Origin: Terriglobales bacterium
Lineage (GTDB): Bacteria; Acidobacteriota; Terriglobia; Terriglobales; Acidobacteriaceae
NCBI GenBank assembly: GCA_035573675.1
Contig: DATMAB010000026.1
Location: forward strand, 1 to 47,500
Direction: 5' to 3'
Length of the DNA: 47,500 nucleotides
In this document: piece by piece, positions 15,192-21,767 of the stretch
How the letters are laid out: each line of letters opens with the position of its first letter
Numbering within the stretch: the first letter of the stretch is position 1
Translations under genes and position numbers: made by a program
The notes under the pieces: model-generated
Seen by the model: the letters and a program-made list of their open reading frames with translations, nothing else
Database searches by the model: none
Told to the model about the DNA's origin: nothing

Positions 15192-16673
15192 ATGCAGAAG
15201 ATCGCCATCCTGTACGACGCCAGCCAGGCCGTCCTCTCGACCTTCGAGCTGGATGAGGTGCTGAACCGCATCCTCTCCATCCTGCGCGACTATTTCCAGG
15301 TGCAGAACGCCACCATTTTTTTGCTCGACCCGGCGAGCAACGAGCTGTACGTGCGCGCGCATTTCGGGCGCGCAATCGGCAGTGAAGGCGTCCGGTTGCC
15401 CGTGGGCAAGGGCCTCATCGGCACGGCCGCGCAACTGAAGCGGCCCATCTACGCGCCCGACGTCAGCCAGGACCCGCGCTACGTGAAGGCGATGGAGTCC
15501 ACGCGCTCGGAAGTCGCCATCCCGCTGATGGTGCGCGACGACGTAGTGGGCGTGCTCGATTGCCAGAGCGACCAGCTCGACTTCTTCAGCGCGGAAACGG
15601 TGGACCTGCTGACGCTGTTCTCCACCCAGGCCTCGATCGCCCTGCAGAACGCCCGCCTGTACACGCTGGAACGCAAGCGCTCGACGCAACTGGAGGCCAT
15701 CAACGCCATCGCCCGGGAGACTACCGGCATGCTGGACCTCGACCAGTTGCTGGACAAGGTCTGCTCCATGATCCTGGTTTCGTTCCCGGTGGACGAGGTC
15801 GCGGTGCTGCTGCGCGAGGAGGAAGGCGACCTGGTCATCCGGGCGCAGCAGGGTCGGCTGACGCCGCGCATGCGCATCGGAGGACGCCTGCCCTCGGGCG
15901 CCGGGCTCTGCGGACGGGCGCTGGCCGGCGGACGTCCGGTGGTGGAGAACGACGTCACCACCGTCGAAGGCTACGTGCCGGGATACGCGGAAACCCGCTC
16001 CGAGCTATGTCTGCCTTTGATTTCCTTCGGACAGACGCTGGGCGTGCTGGCGCTGGAGAGCGCGACGCTGAACGCCTTCCAGCCCGGCGACGTGCAGGCG
16101 CTGGAGTCCATGGCCGATATCTGCGCCGGCGCCATCCAGAACGCGCGCTTCTTCGACCGCGTGAAGCAGATGGCCTACCTCGACGGCCTCACCTCCATCT
16201 ACAACCGGCGCTACTTCGAGATGCGCGTGGTGGAGGAGATGGAGCGCGCCAGCCGCTACACCGGGCAGATGGCCGTGATCATGGTCGATATCGACCACTT
16301 CAAGCGGCTGAACGACGAATTCGGCCACCTGCTGGGCGACGAGGTGCTGCGCCAGATCGCCGCCATCTTCACCCAGCAACTGCGCAAGGCCGACGTGGTG
16401 TGCCGATACGGCGGCGAGGAGTTCGCCATCCTGGTGCCGGAAACCACCGGCGAGAAGGCCATGGGCGTGGCGGAGAAGCTGCGCCGCGTGGTCGAGGCTT
16501 GGCCCTTCCCCGGCGTGCCGCGCCCGGTGACCATCAGCGCCGGCGTCGCCGACTATCCCGAGAACGGCACCACCCGCGACGAACTGGTGCGCGCCGCCGA
16601 CGAAGCCCTCTACGCCGCCAAACAGGCCGGAAGAAACCGCGTGATGGCCGCAGTGGGCGTCCGCAAGGGGTAG
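15192..16673 (+). CDS. Diguanylate cyclase with two GAF domains
   Basis: A 493-residue cytoplasmic enzyme predicted to make cyclic di-GMP from two GTP. Two GAF sensor domains (residues ~1-160 and ~170-320; e.g. YFQVQNATIFLLDPASNELYVRA and FPVDEVAVLLREEEGD) precede a GGDEF domain beginning AYLDGLTSIYNRRYF. The active site is GGEEF near residue 407, and the RKAD motif five residues upstream is an intact RxxD inhibitory site, so product feedback is expected. There is no membrane segment, so the signal is likely cytosolic. The start is ATG 15192. It is divergent from moeA and followed after 81 nt by the restriction gene, which has different base composition. Confidence 0.95.
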   Translation: MQKIAILYDASQAVLSTFELDEVLNRILSILRDYFQVQNATIFLLDPASNELYVRAHFGRAIGSEGVRLPVGKGLIGTAAQLKRPIYAPDVSQDPRYVKAMESTRSEVAIPLMVRDDVVGVLDCQSDQLDFFSAETVDLLTLFSTQASIALQNARLYTLERKRSTQLEAINAIARETTGMLDLDQLLDKVCSMILVSFPVDEVAVLLREEEGDLVIRAQQGRLTPRMRIGGRLPSGAGLCGRALAGGRPVVENDVTTVEGYVPGYAETRSELCLPLISFGQTLGVLALESATLNAFQPGDVQALESMADICAGAIQNARFFDRVKQMAYLDGLTSIYNRRYFEMRVVEEMERASRYTGQMAVIMVDIDHFKRLNDEFGHLLGDEVLRQIAAIFTQQLRKADVVCRYGGEEFAILVPETTGEKAMGVAEKLRRVVEAWPFPGVPRPVTISAGVADYPENGTTRDELVRAADEALYAAKQAGRNRVMAAVGVRKG

Positions 16674-16754: not shown

Positions 16755-18116
16755 ATGAGAAAGAGCGATCTGCCCTTCGGGAGTGAGTTCTCCCCGAGCC
16801 AGATAGATCTCCGTGAAGTCCTAGAGTTCGCCAAACAGCACGGCGGAGACTGGAAAGCCTTCGAGGCTGCTGTCCGTTCGAAGTATTTCGATGCTCACAT
16901 TGAAACCAGCGCGTACAACCGGGCCAAACTCGCCAATAACACAAAGCTCGGCATGCAGGCCTACGGCATCATTGATGACCAGGCCACCCTAACAACGTTC
17001 GGCCAGGAGCTCTATTCACTCCGACATGACGAAAAAGCACTGTACGAGGCGCTTGCCAGACACATCCTGCGGAATCTGAACGGAGCATCGTTGATTCAGT
17101 GCATTCAGGACATTCAGGCCAGCGGCGAGCCCGTAACCCTGATCAAACTGCGCGAATGGCTCGAAGAGCGTGGAATTCACTTCCCAAGAGGCGGCAAACA
17201 CCCCAGCATCATGCGGCTTTGGCTTGAAAAGGCTGGCGTCTTTTCTGACGGCTATAGGGTCGACGAGTCGCGCTTGCGGAAGATGCTAGGAGTCGCTACG
17301 GAGGACATCGACGTTCTGGCAAGGCTTAGCCTACCCCAGCGATTCTTCCTCAGAACGCTGATCAACCTCGGACCGGATCGAAGCTACCCCTCGAATGAGA
17401 TCGAAAAAGCGGCGACGGCTACGTACGGTCAGAAATACAACGAGAAGGCGCTGGCAAAACAGGTCCTGTATCCGTTAGAGAAGGCGGGATACATAACGCT
17501 CAAGAAGTCCACCCGAGCCAAACCACCGGTCGTCTCCGCAACACCGAAATTGGTTGCAGAAGTTGTCGAACCCCTGCTCCGGCAGCTCGAAATGCGCTTG
17601 CCGGACGACCTGCGTCCGCTTCTCCGCAGACCTTTCTCTGAGATTGTCACGGAGCTCAGTGCCACGGACCGTCATACGAGAGGCTTAGCCCTTGAGGCAT
17701 TAGCGTTCAAGTTAATGCGACTCGTGGACCTTGAGTACCGGGCAACCCGCCTTCGCGGAATAGCCACTGGTGGAGCCGAAGTTGATGTAATCTTCGAATC
17801 GAGTCGTCTGGTGTTCTCTAGATGGCAGGTACAATGTAAAAACACGGCCAGGGTTACTGTTGATGACGTTGCAAAAGAAGTTGGCCTCACCCACTTTCTC
17901 AAGAGCAACGTCGTCGTCGTTGTCAGTACGGGGGAGATCGGGCAAGAGGCCCGTCGCTACGCAAACAAAATCATGCAAGATTCCAACCTCTGCGTGGTCA
18001 TGGTTGATGGCGCAGACATCCGACAGGTTGTAGGTAATTCCTTGAGGATTTTGGATGTGCTCAACAGAGAGGCCAAGCACGCAATGAAGCTGAAGGTCTT
18101 GGAACTTCAGAAATAG
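16755..18116 (+). CDS. Mrr-like PD-(D/E)XK restriction endonuclease
   Basis: A 453-residue probable nuclease. The C-terminal third carries a PD-(D/E)XK fold of the Mrr type: GLALEALAF (Glu near residue 313), GGAEVDVIFE (catalytic Asp near 344) and WQVQCKN (Q-x-K near 358-360), followed by VVVVVSTGEIGQEARRYANKI. The N-terminal two thirds probably hold winged-helix DNA-recognition modules (YGIIDDQATLTTFGQELYSL; QVLYPLEKAGYITLKK) but are not recognisable as a named family. GC content and codon use are visibly lower than in the neighbours. A methyltransferase gene follows after 4 nt, so this is read as the nuclease of a restriction-modification pair. The ATG at 16755 lies 12 nt after a TATTCT hexamer. 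Confidence 0.8.
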   Translation: MRKSDLPFGSEFSPSQIDLREVLEFAKQHGGDWKAFEAAVRSKYFDAHIETSAYNRAKLANNTKLGMQAYGIIDDQATLTTFGQELYSLRHDEKALYEALARHILRNLNGASLIQCIQDIQASGEPVTLIKLREWLEERGIHFPRGGKHPSIMRLWLEKAGVFSDGYRVDESRLRKMLGVATEDIDVLARLSLPQRFFLRTLINLGPDRSYPSNEIEKAATATYGQKYNEKALAKQVLYPLEKAGYITLKKSTRAKPPVVSATPKLVAEVVEPLLRQLEMRLPDDLRPLLRRPFSEIVTELSATDRHTRGLALEALAFKLMRLVDLEYRATRLRGIATGGAEVDVIFESSRLVFSRWQVQCKNTARVTVDDVAKEVGLTHFLKSNVVVVVSTGEIGQEARRYANKIMQDSNLCVVMVDGADIRQVVGNSLRILDVLNREAKHAMKLKVLELQK

Positions 18117-18120
18117 GCAT

Positions 18121-19176
18121 ATGGCAACTCAAGCACCAAGGGGCTATCTGGTCACGGAACACGGCGCCGTTATTCATGGCGATTCTTGCCTCTATCTGAA
18201 TCAGTATGTCAAGCAGTCTTCCGTGGACCTGATCATGACCAGCCCACCATTTGGCCTGGTCAGAAAGAAAGGGTACGGAAACGCTGACGCAAGCCAATAC
18301 CTTGAATGGTTCCGACCATTCGCCGAAGCCTTTCGGCGGGTTCTGAGGGACAACGGCAGCTTGGTCATCGACATTGGAGGAGCTTGGATTCCTGGGCAAC
18401 CAACCCGTAGCCTCTATCATTTCAAGCTTCTAATCATGCTTTGTGAAGAGTTTGGCTTCCATTTAGCCCAGGAGTTCTACTGGTGGAATCCCGCGAAGTT
18501 GCCCACACCAGCCGAGTGGGTCACCGTGCGCCGAATCCGAGTGAAGGACGCAGTCAATTGCATCTGGTGGCTTTCTGCGTCCCCGTGGCCCCGCGCTGAC
18601 AATCGGCGGGTGCTTCAACCTTATAGCGAAAGCATGCGAGAGCTTCTGAGGAACGGCTACAAACCAAAGAAACGGCCATCTGGACATGACATAAGTGACA
18701 AGTTTGGAATCGATAATGGCGCTTCGATTCCACCAAATCTGATAGCTCTCGCAAACACCGAGAGTAACGGAGAGTATCTAAGGTACTGTAAGCACAAGGG
18801 GATTCAACCTCATCCCGCGAGATTTCCGGCGGCAATACCCGAGTTTTTTGTACGCATGCTCACGGACGTTGGGGACCGCGTGATCGACCCCTTCGCGGGA
18901 AGTTGTGTCACCGGGGAAGTCTGTGACCGACTAAGGAGAAAGTGGATCTGCATCGAGCTCGACGAAGAATATTTGAGAGGGGCAAAATCACGATTCACAA
19001 AATCTCGGCGGCCGAGCGAGTCCCAAGCATCGCTGTTTGAGCCTGAGATAACTCCACAGGGCTTTTACAAAGCGTATCGTCCCGGGATTCTCTGGAATGG
19101 GCATCCTGCCGATCGGCTTGTGGCAGACGGCGGGCGCAGTCGCAAAGTAGGCCAGGCAGCCAAAGCAACCAAGTAA
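18121..19176 (+). CDS. Beta-class DNA methyltransferase resembling M.PvuII
   Basis: A 351-residue methyltransferase. The catalytic motif TSPPFGLVRKKGYGN lies near residue 40 and the SAM-binding DPFAGSCVTGEV near residue 256; this order (motif IV before motif I) defines the beta class, and TSPPF is typical of N4-cytosine enzymes. From memory the sequence resembles the CAGCTG methyltransferase M.PvuII over long stretches (e.g. EWVTVRRIRVKDAVNCIWW, KKRPSGHDI, GASIPPNLI, HPARFPAAIPEFFVRML). Its role is to protect host DNA against the adjacent nuclease. Low GC suggests acquisition. A ~60-residue C-terminal tail is not part of the core. Specificity is inference. Confidence 0.88.
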   Translation: MATQAPRGYLVTEHGAVIHGDSCLYLNQYVKQSSVDLIMTSPPFGLVRKKGYGNADASQYLEWFRPFAEAFRRVLRDNGSLVIDIGGAWIPGQPTRSLYHFKLLIMLCEEFGFHLAQEFYWWNPAKLPTPAEWVTVRRIRVKDAVNCIWWLSASPWPRADNRRVLQPYSESMRELLRNGYKPKKRPSGHDISDKFGIDNGASIPPNLIALANTESNGEYLRYCKHKGIQPHPARFPAAIPEFFVRMLTDVGDRVIDPFAGSCVTGEVCDRLRRKWICIELDEEYLRGAKSRFTKSRRPSESQASLFEPEITPQGFYKAYRPGILWNGHPADRLVADGGRSRKVGQAAKATK

Positions 19177-19449: not shown

Positions 19450-20943
19450 TCACCGCAGCCGGTTGGCCACCGCCTGTACGCGCTCGTCAGTGCGGAAGCC
19501 GTGAATGTAGAGGGGGCCGGGCCGGCTGCGGACGTAGTCCGTGGCCTGGCTGATCTGGTCGCTGGCGTCGCCCGACGACGGAATGGAAATGTGGGTGAAC
19601 TGGAAGCCGTAGACGGCAGTCCACTGCTGCTCACGCTGGATCCAGCGCTGGTTGTCGGGCTTCGTGCCGTCCATCAGGGAGACGACTTCACGGATACCCG
19701 CCAGCTTCAGGGTTCCGATCTCGTCGTCGGTCGGGTAGGGCCCGAGCACATATTTCCTGTTGAACTTGAACAGCGGCCCGCGCTCGAAGGAATCGCGTCC
19801 GATGGGGACGGGAACAAACTGCCCGCCGCCGAGAGCGGCATCGAGCGGCCAGACCCAGCGTCCTATGCGGTAGCCGAGGATGTACACCCGCTCGCCTGAG
19901 TTGCGCGCGTACTGGGCTAGGTCGCGAATGGCCAGCGGGTCGGGCGCATGGGTATCGATCGGCTTGGTGGTGACCCGCAGGTTGTAGTCGGCGGCCACCT
20001 TGTTGATCTGCTCGATCCAGGGCTGATTGTCGGGATCAGCGGGATCGAGCGTGGAGATGACCTCGCGCACGCCGTGGCGCAGTACGGCGGTGAACCATTC
20101 CTGCTCCACGGGCAGCGGTCCCAGGACGATGCGCTTGTGCTCGTAGGTGAAAATCGTGCCGCGCTCAAGACGTTCGGGCAGCAGCTCGTCCACGGATTCT
20201 CCCGCCAGCGCCAGCCCGTGGGTGGCCATCTGGCGGACGAGGTTGGCGCGATGCTGGCCCAGATAACAGTGCACGTAGTACCGCTTGCTGCCGTCGCCGA
20301 GCAGGCGGCGGATGGCCTCCAGTGCGTCCCGGTTCTCCGAGATCCAGGGCAGCATGGGGAAGGAGTACACCGGGATGCCGGCCTCGCCGGCGTTGGCGGT
20401 TTCGCGGTCGAGCAGCACCTTTTCGAAGGGAAGCGCGGGATGCAGCAGAGTAATCACGCCGTCGTAGTGCTGGAACTTGAGGCTCTTCAGGTCGTCCAGG
20501 TCGGGGTAGGGACCGAAGGTCAGGTTGCGGGAGAGCTGCTGGACGCGGGCGCGCCGCTCGGCGATGATGCCGACTCCGGTGTCCAGGAACATGACGAAGG
20601 CGGCGCCGGCTGCGACCACGACGAGCAGCAGGACGAGATGCGCCTGCCGCGGGCGATAGGTGCGCCCGAGTGCAAGGCGGTAATAGAGCGCGGTGACCGC
20701 CAGGGCGATCAGGCCCCAGGCGAAGACCAGCAGGCCGAGGAGGCGGTCGATGCCGGCCTGTCCCCAGCCCCGCGCTTCGAGCGCATGCTCCAGCGGCACC
20801 AGAGCGAACAGGAGGAAGGCAGCGCCGCCGGCAAAGCCGAAACAGCCCAGGAACAGCAAGGTCATCAGCCACTTGCGCCCGCGGCCGAGAGCGGGGCCGC
20901 GCGCCGTGGCTTTGGAACCCGATGGAGTGCCGCGTTGTGCCAT
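19450..20943 (-). CDS. Membrane protein with three tandem tyrosine/dual-specificity-phosphatase-like domains, two degenerate
   Basis: A 497-residue protein. Three predicted membrane helices lie in the first ~120 residues (LMTLLFLGCFGFAGGAAFLLF; LLGLLVFAWGLIALAVTALYY; LVLLLVVVAAGAAFVMFL). Three repeats follow, each opening with a (F/L)GP(Y/L)P phrase (LTFGPYPDLDDL, RIVLGPLPVEQEW, YVLGPYPTDDEI). Repeat 1 has a complete CX5R phosphatase loop, HCYLGQHR (Cys226, Arg232). In repeat 2 the loop reads ILGYRIGR (Cys to Leu) and in repeat 3 HGFRTDER (Gly482 for Cys, Arg488 kept). Only repeat 1 could be catalytic; the others look like pseudophosphatase modules. ATG 20943 is chosen because upstream in-frame sequence is arginine-rich shadow. 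The substrate is unknown. Confidence 0.75.
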   Translation of the reverse strand: MAQRGTPSGSKATARGPALGRGRKWLMTLLFLGCFGFAGGAAFLLFALVPLEHALEARGWGQAGIDRLLGLLVFAWGLIALAVTALYYRLALGRTYRPRQAHLVLLLVVVAAGAAFVMFLDTGVGIIAERRARVQQLSRNLTFGPYPDLDDLKSLKFQHYDGVITLLHPALPFEKVLLDRETANAGEAGIPVYSFPMLPWISENRDALEAIRRLLGDGSKRYYVHCYLGQHRANLVRQMATHGLALAGESVDELLPERLERGTIFTYEHKRIVLGPLPVEQEWFTAVLRHGVREVISTLDPADPDNQPWIEQINKVAADYNLRVTTKPIDTHAPDPLAIRDLAQYARNSGERVYILGYRIGRWVWPLDAALGGGQFVPVPIGRDSFERGPLFKFNRKYVLGPYPTDDEIGTLKLAGIREVVSLMDGTKPDNQRWIQREQQWTAVYGFQFTHISIPSSGDASDQISQATDYVRSRPGPLYIHGFRTDERVQAVANRLR

Positions 20944-21071: not shown

Positions 21072-21767
21072 ATGAGCACCAGTCCGAAGCCGGCGCCGGA
21101 GGAGCGCAAGTCCGCCACTGTGGCCCTGTTCGGCCTGGAGGAGCCGGCGGCAGGCATCTTGCGCGATTGCTTCCGCCAGTTTGGCATCCGGACGGAAGCC
21201 GTGGTGGGAGACCCGGTGGAGCGCCTGCAGCGACAGAAATTCGAGGCCTGCGCGCTGCGGCTGAACGAAGATGCGGAGGCCATCCTGAAGGCGGCGCGCG
21301 GCTCGCCCTCGAACCGCCGCATCGTGGTGTATGGCCTGAGCCGCAGCCCGGAAGAGGCCATCCGCTACTCCAAGTACGGCGTGAATGCCATGTTGCAGGA
21401 GCCGGTGGACCGTCAGTCGGTGCTGAAGGTGGTGCGGGCCACGCACCTGCTGGTCATCAACGAACTGCGCATTTACGTGCGTGTTCCCGTGTTCACCGAG
21501 GTCGCTCTGGAACGCGCGGGCCGTAAGTGCACCGCCTCCACCCTGGAAGTGAGCGCCGGAGGCATGTCGATGCGCTGCGCCGAGAAGCTCGCCATGGGGG
21601 AGGCCGTCGACGTGAGCTTCACGCTGCCGGGAGAGAAGCCCTTGAAGCTGGGCGCCACGGTGGTGTGGCGGCGCGATCCTGATGTCGTGGGCCTGCGCTT
21701 CGAGCCCACTGACGAGCGCCGCATCACCGTGCGCCAGTGGATCGATACCTACCTGGGTATCGGCTGA
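21072..21767 (+). CDS. PilZ-domain protein with receiver-like N-terminus
   Basis: A 231-residue cytoplasmic protein. The N-terminal ~125 residues have the alternating strand/helix pattern of a receiver (TVALFGLEEPAAGILRDCFRQFGIRTEAV ... GVNAMLQEPVDRQSVLKVV), but no clear phospho-acceptor Asp is found, so it is likely a pseudo-receiver. The C-terminal PilZ domain has RxxxR (RIYVR) and EVSAGG, an Asp-to-Glu variant of the usual (D/N)xSxxG c-di-GMP motif. It may respond to cyclic di-GMP made by enzymes such as the GGDEF protein at 15192; this is inference. ATG 21072 is preferred to an in-frame ATG at 21036 because an AGGGAAAGAAG stretch precedes it. Confidence 0.82.
   Translation: MSTSPKPAPEERKSATVALFGLEEPAAGILRDCFRQFGIRTEAVVGDPVERLQRQKFEACALRLNEDAEAILKAARGSPSNRRIVVYGLSRSPEEAIRYSKYGVNAMLQEPVDRQSVLKVVRATHLLVINELRIYVRVPVFTEVALERAGRKCTASTLEVSAGGMSMRCAEKLAMGEAVDVSFTLPGEKPLKLGATVVWRRDPDVVGLRFEPTDERRITVRQWIDTYLGIG

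Follow-up and report, generated by a model that had tools for sequence, protein, structure and literature searches.

A membrane-anchored bacterial protein with one predicted active and two degenerate PTP-fold domains, with relatives often encoded near a glycosyltransferase gene

Introduction

Phosphatase arrays that join active and dead domains in tandem are familiar mainly from the receptor PTPs of animals. The tandem described for these receptors consists of an active membrane-proximal domain (D1) followed by an inactive copy (D2) (PMC7320164). The protein reported here has the same apparent order, an active membrane-proximal domain and then inactive copies, but it is bacterial and its array probably lies outside the membrane, whereas receptor PTPs are eukaryotic and their phosphatase domains intracellular. 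Its third loop has Gly in place of the catalytic Cys, as described for STYX (PMC8622459).

Several single-domain phosphatases are also close. The PFA-DSPs (AtPFA-DSP1, Siw14) have a PTP fold, and AtPFA-DSP1 is described as having no WPD-loop acid and a His directly before the P-loop Arg (PMC9038691). The predicted catalytic domain of the present protein resembles them in predicted fold and in this His, and it may likewise lack the acid. Unlike these plant and fungal single domains, which are associated with inositol pyrophosphates, it is bacterial, membrane-anchored and followed by tandem dead copies. The DUF442 putative phosphatases of Shewanella (3gxg and 3gxh) are the structures that repeats 1 and 3 match best in fold, but are 14-20% identical in those alignments, and the present protein has no match to their profile, PF04273. 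We know of no membrane helices or tandem array in DUF442 proteins. Phosphatases of the TpbA type are single domains exported via a signal sequence and carry no membrane anchor. TpbA of Pseudomonas aeruginosa is described as a PTP-fold protein that acts outside the cytoplasm in exopolysaccharide control (PMC2691606), both of which may hold here; unlike this periplasmic protein with its signal sequence, ours has three membrane helices and three domains.

A genomic parallel is the Bacillus subtilis ydaJKLMN operon for an unknown polysaccharide, in which a c-di-GMP receptor gene accompanies a putative synthase (PMC7064775). The present system resembles it in this pairing; the operon, compared here by its description, differs in that the description mentions no PTP-like gene (PMC7064775).

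Results

Gene layout and selection

The window is the whole stretch of DNA that was analysed, 47,500 nucleotides from a Terriglobales bacterium of the Acidobacteriota (contig DATMAB010000026.1). Its features relevant here are as follows.

19450..20943, minus strand: gene for a membrane-anchored protein of three predicted PTP-fold domains; ATG at 20943, stop codon at 19450-19452, 497 aa
20581..20853, minus strand: three transmembrane helices, residues ~31-50, 67-88 and 102-121 (hydropathy, loop charges, helices in the model)
20209..20550, minus strand: repeat 1, residues 132-245, PTP fold, predicted catalytic (predicted model, structural matches, alignment)
20344..20358, minus strand: conserved motif PMLPW, residues 196-200, at about the WPD-loop position (repeat-1 alignment)
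20248..20271, minus strand: P-loop 1, HCYLGQHR, residues 225-232, with putative nucleophile C226, H231 and R232 (HC[YF]LGx[HD]R in 30/30 loci)
19819..20160, minus strand: repeat 2, residues 262-375, putative pseudophosphatase (structural match, profile scores, loop alignment)
19855..19878, minus strand: dead P-loop 2, aligned register LGYRIGRW, residues 356-363, Cys replaced by Gly357 and Arg by Trp363 (alignment)
19453..19776, minus strand: repeat 3, residues 390-497, putative pseudophosphatase (modelled alone at pLDDT 89.8; structural matches, profile scores)
19480..19503, minus strand: dead P-loop 3, HGFRTDER, residues 481-488, Cys replaced by Gly482 and Arg488 kept (alignment)
21075..21764, plus strand: divergent PilZ-domain neighbour (Pfam PF07238, E 6.7e-13), which also adjoins the gene in the sister genome

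Re-reading the open reading frame returned the coordinates and strand given in an earlier note on this DNA: a minus-strand gene of 497 aa, whose coding part (20943-19453) specifies three membrane helices and then three tandem domains with a predicted PTP fold. The three hydrophobic helices described there were found by hydropathy and in the predicted model.

We identified an ortholog of equal length in a sister genome that is 87% identical (430/497 residues). Comparison of the two gives a dN/dS of 0.115 over residues 21-497, with values of 0.103 for residues 126-245, 0.108 for 246-377 and 0.075 for 378-497. These values show purifying selection on each of the three repeats, with the dead repeats constrained to much the same degree as the active one. 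A pseudogene was rejected on the overall value. A plasmid- or phage-borne origin was likewise rejected: plasmids and phages gave no match, and viral contigs, covered in 1 of 8 scans, yielded no relative that could be confirmed.

Homology of the three repeats

Each repeat opens with an FGPYP-like phrase, as had been pointed out: FGPYP (residues 143-147), LGPLP (274-278) and LGPYP (400-404). From an alignment of eight proteins that includes the window protein (A1), we built profiles of the first and second repeats (R1 and R2) using the seven other proteins and scored them on the repeats of the window protein. The R1 profile gave 12.4 bits on repeat 2, the weakest of the four comparisons, and 27.5 on repeat 3; the R2 profile gave 22.7 on repeat 1 and 74.3 on repeat 3. 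Each segment was also shuffled 2000 times; hmmsearch reported scores for 1321-1483 of these shuffles per comparison, the highest being 6.5 bits. The membrane segment, a negative control, gave -1.5 bits or no score. The repeats score above every reported shuffle and are homologous; chance resemblance is rejected. Together the two profiles recognise all three repeats.

Of the repeats in the relatives, the second is the one that repeat 3 resembles most (74.3 bits), so repeat 3 looks like a copy of repeat 2. A six-frame search with an R1 profile that included the window protein recovered repeat 3 at E 2.2e-5 and repeat 2 only at E 2.9.

Predicted fold and family membership

The whole-protein model, built from the eight-sequence alignment, has a mean pLDDT of 72.6 and a pTM of 0.38, at which the arrangement of its domains is unreliable. 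Within this model, repeat 1 matches the DUF442 structure 3gxh (Z 12.1, rmsd 2.7, 114 aligned) and repeat 2 matches TpbA (4r0s; Z 9.6, rmsd 2.5, 108 aligned); Foldseek on the whole model found no match at E 0.001. Repeat 3 was modelled alone (pLDDT 89.8) with 17 other repeats as its alignment, and 16 of these 17 rows are first or second repeats that may pull the model toward their fold. This model matches DUF442 3gxg (Z 12.6, rmsd 3.5, 114 aligned), AtPFA-DSP1 (Z 11.9, rmsd 2.0, 103 aligned) and, in Foldseek, 39 chains at E 0.001 or better. All three repeats are predicted to adopt a PTP fold, each with a phosphatase as its best match (Z 12.1, 9.6 and 12.6 for repeats 1 to 3). The earlier note had named the lack of a phosphatase fold in such predictions as a refutation of its triple phosphatase/pseudophosphatase array, and the models do not refute it.

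No Pfam family matches the window protein above cut-off. The Tc-R-P DSP-PTPase profile PF22785 scores 14.7 bits on the window protein and 16.2 on repeat 3 alone, below its curated cut-off of 27, and matches 2 of the 8 A1 proteins (best E 1.7e-5); PF22741 matches one of the eight (E 5.7e-5). Y_phosphatase2 (PF03162) matched 1 of 18 repeats, at E 0.028, and none of the 8 whole proteins at E 0.01, and the DUF442 profile PF04273 is absent from the Pfam matches of the window protein, the A1 proteins and the repeats. An NCBIfam match to Blh lies far under its cut-off (14.9 of 625 bits), and a PDB sequence search returned no match at E 1. We set aside weak matches to DUF6057, DUF6833, VWA, BrkB, PAP2, CofB, LonC, crAss001_48 and Laminin_II. 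We find no support for assigning the protein to any of the PFA-DSP, DUF442, Tc-R-P and TpbA families.

Active-site loops and repeat-1 chemistry

Loop 1 was read by the earlier note as HCYLGQHR with Cys and Arg in place, and our reading agrees. Loop 2 is degenerate and has lost its Cys, as stated there, but the register given (ILGYRIGR) is one residue off: C226 aligns with G357, not L356, and R232 with W363. The reading of loop 3 as HGFRTDER, with Gly482 at the Cys position and R488 kept, also holds; this position is Ser in the sister species. The sole CX5R of the window protein is at C226, and repeats 2 and 3 lack a CX5R P-loop.

Loss of the Cys226 loop in orthologues had been named as grounds for abandoning the phosphatase reading. 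The loop is intact, with the pattern HC[YF]LG[KRQA][HD]R, in all 30 loci compared, which are those of the window, its sister and 28 relatives; none of the 30 has another CX5R after it. In most relatives, as judged by eye in the alignment, loop 2 retains its His, and the Cys position is occupied by Gly, Asp, Asn, Ala or Ser.

The residue directly before the P-loop Arg is His in 22 of the 30 loci, including H231 of the window protein, and Asp in 8. In a set of 32 repeat-1 sequences, of which two are distant or match poorly, no column between residues 190 and 225 is at least 85% Asp or Glu; the pre-Cys columns conserved at 85% or more in this set include P196, M197, L198, P199, W200 and N204. We take PMLPW to occupy about the WPD-loop position, where it was placed through hand alignment with DSP sequences. 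PFA-DSP1 is described as lacking the WPD acid and yet being an efficient enzyme, and mutation of His155 of AtPFA-DSP1, directly before the P-loop Arg, is reported to lower activity by 95-98% (PMC9038691). By analogy, repeat 1 may use PFA-DSP-like chemistry with His231 in place of the WPD acid; an apparent lack of this acid could also mean that repeat 1 itself is inactive. By its CX5R P-loop and predicted PTP fold, repeat 1 belongs to the Cys-based PTP superfamily.

Distribution of the family

At E 0.001, we identified matches in 13 of 396 genomes of the window phylum (3 weak), 4 of 39 genomes of the class of Rubrobacter marinus, 11 of 348 genomes of the order of Rossellomorea aquimaris (among them a weak and a helix-only match) and 6 of 299 genomes of the phylum of Syntrophomonas wolfei (including a weak match and one common to the Rossellomorea-order set). 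The distribution is patchy and wide. A search of named relatives by short patterns confirmed 8 loci. The number of dead copies varies, from none in L063 and one in the Rubrobacter loci L004 and L008 (388 aa) to apparent further degenerate repeats, with weak profile support, in the longer A1 proteins (556-592 aa).

The 30-locus counts leave aside weak matches (L022, L023, L024, L048 and L052), the helix-only L047, the fragments L036 and L053, the single-repeat L021 (loop HCYLGLHR) and L009-L011, of which L010 and L011 are included in A1. The gene of L062 is split in two frames, and the piece holding the loop was counted. The 30 loci are not independent and include near-identical pairs (e.g. L064/L065) and similar sets (e.g. 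L074/L077/L081). The contig of L010 (MWCA01000050.1) is titled Lentisphaerae, and by eye its gene is very close to the Syntrophomonas copies; it is perhaps mis-binned.

Membrane topology

By the positive-inside rule, net-positive loops stay on the cytoplasmic side. In all 8 A1 proteins the N-terminal tail has a net charge of +2 to +6, the loop joining helices 1 and 2 one of 0 to -4, and that joining helices 2 and 3 one of +2 to +6, where the N-terminal tails of L005 and L007 begin at a residue chosen inside the ORF. This pattern points to an N-in, C-out topology, judged by charge only, and suggests that the three-domain array lies outside the membrane, here in the periplasm. The stretch just after helix 3 carries +3 in the window protein versus 0 to -5 in the other seven, so the case for an outward array is a little weaker for the window protein.

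Genomic neighbourhood

We identified a GT2 glycosyltransferase gene at most 3 kb away, on the same strand and with 0-2 genes between, in 23 of the 30 loci. The other seven are the window, the sister, L059 (at a contig end) and the four Syntrophomonas-type loci L074, L075, L077 and L081, one of which sits on a 5.2 kb contig. Further neighbours among the 30 loci are HEAT-repeat genes (16 loci, by BLAST), a protein that we call C4 (11), a YaiO barrel (7), strong GGDEF/REC matches (7) and GH16 (4). The GT2, HEAT, YaiO barrel, GH16 and GGDEF/REC identities were confirmed with Pfam for representatives.

On another contig of the window genome, genes for HEAT (by Pfam), GT2, a large protein that we call C14 and a TPR coding sequence lie in a row, apart from the phosphatase gene. 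The sister genome has the same HEAT/GT2/C14/TPR order, split over two contigs and likewise apart from its phosphatase gene; the last protein of this row has TPR-family matches, and YaiO is not among the matches listed. In one relative (G053), a HEAT, GT2 and C14 operon includes a short one-repeat phosphatase.

Among 61 related genomes, the phosphatase occurs in 3 and GT2 in 12, and all 3 fall within the 12. GT2 is therefore present in 3/3 phosphatase genomes versus 9/58 others (P ~0.006), or 2/2 versus 9/58 with the window genome left out (P ~0.03), at limits of E 0.001 for the phosphatase and a chosen E 1e-60 for GT2, with the window genome's own GT2 protein as query. Because two of the three phosphatase-bearing genomes belong to one genus, this co-occurrence gives modest support to a polysaccharide link.

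Genes of c-di-GMP type flank the phosphatase gene on both sides, the PilZ gene (21075-21764) and a GAF-GGDEF cyclase gene (15192-16673). The latter lies beyond genes for an Mrr-type restriction endonuclease (PF04471) and an N6/N4 DNA methylase (PF01555) at 16755-19176. In the sister genome the ~2.7 kb with the Mrr and methylase genes is missing, and the GAF-GGDEF gene adjoins the phosphatase gene with only ~65 bases between them. The segment is either an insertion in the window genome or a loss in the sister.

Discussion

We propose that the protein, anchored in the membrane, is a phosphatase that faces outward and works for a synthase-type exopolysaccharide system, with repeats 2 and 3 as pseudophosphatase docking modules, and put the probability of this reading at about 0.5; its topology, catalysis, docking and role in polysaccharide synthesis are what we infer from the observations above. 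The three helices would anchor the protein, with the three PTP domains outside, in the periplasm. Repeat 1 would be the only enzyme: the Cys226 thiolate would attack the phosphate, held by Arg232 and the P-loop, and His231 (Asp in some relatives) would give the acid/base help that a WPD-loop Asp supplies in ordinary PTPs, as in PFA-DSPs. Repeats 2 and 3 would serve as docking sites for the substrate or for a partner, and they may regulate the first repeat. As substrate, a phosphorylated part of the HEAT-repeat/GT2 polysaccharide machine on the outer side of the membrane would be most likely, with a protein loop, a lipid carrier or the nascent glycan as candidates. That the degenerate copies may bind phospho-ligands or regulate repeat 1 was already suggested in the earlier note, and purifying selection on them fits; new here are the probable extracytoplasmic side, the polysaccharide operon link and the apparent absence of a WPD acid.

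The enzyme could instead signal as TpbA does, dephosphorylating tyrosines in outer loops of a membrane regulator such as a diguanylate cyclase and so lowering c-di-GMP and polysaccharide output. TpbA is described as periplasmic; its proposed target is the GGDEF protein TpbB, through which it would affect Pel (PMC2691606). It is the only structure covering repeat 2 among the matches listed, and it also matches repeat 3 (Z 11.0, below DUF442 and PFA-DSP); strong GGDEF/REC matches occur in 7 of the 30 loci, and the window gene has PilZ and GAF-GGDEF genes nearby. The proposal presupposes outer loops on the operon GGDEF proteins, however, and a tyrosine kinase on that side, of which we know none; TpbA itself is soluble. 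We consider it unlikely. Slightly less probable is a glycan phosphatase resembling SEX4 or laforin, in which repeat 1 would strip phosphate off nascent exopolysaccharide and repeats 2 and 3 would bind the chain: the fold matches include structures of SEX4 and laforin (4pyh, 4r30 and 4kyq, the last of which we take to be SEX4), but many other DSPs match equally well. GT2 near 23 loci, the GH16 gene in 4 and the apparently outward-facing site agree with such a role.

Least probable of these is an array that is catalytically dead throughout, with repeat 1 binding phosphate without hydrolysing it. In its favour, the conserved motif at the WPD-like position is PMLPW, with no conserved Asp or Glu nearby. 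Retention of the Cys, the Arg and the His or Asp before it in 30 of 30 loci is hard to explain without catalysis, however, and PFA-DSP1 is described as efficient without the same acid (PMC9038691).

The proposed outward-facing phosphatase may be an undescribed part of surface-polysaccharide machinery, since most of the relatives examined lie close to surface-polysaccharide genes. A bolder and rather doubtful extension is that it belongs to an undescribed cross-phylum family of outward phosphatases that would trim phosphate off a nascent exopolysaccharide or off its carrier. Most members would have between one and three pseudophosphatase modules to hold the chain, making the family a bacterial counterpart of the receptor PTP tandem, placed across the membrane from it. 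Among the open-access papers listed, we found none, by title or start of abstract, on a bacterial tandem active/pseudophosphatase protein, and none by title on a YaiO/HEAT/glycosyltransferase system with a phosphatase; likewise we found no paper on a Bacillus exopolysaccharide operon with HEAT-repeat and diguanylate cyclase genes, and a single genome note covering yaiP and yaiO. A bacterial family with one conserved, apparently active copy and selected dead copies would offer a tractable system for pseudophosphatase function, and the protein is a candidate missing part for HEAT/GT2 exopolysaccharide operons of distant bacteria.

Two other proteins recur at these loci. C4 (L066:6675-7748 and relatives) has ~357 aa and no Pfam match at E 0.01; its 11 loci near the phosphatase gene, among the 30, all come from genomes found by way of Rossellomorea, Sporosarcina or Syntrophomonas. 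C14 (L063:4797-7706, L074:11464-13632 and L092:10173-12878) is a protein of 720-970 aa that recurs in the polysaccharide loci; it has TPR in L094, and the remainder, without a Pfam match, looks by eye like a glycoside hydrolase.
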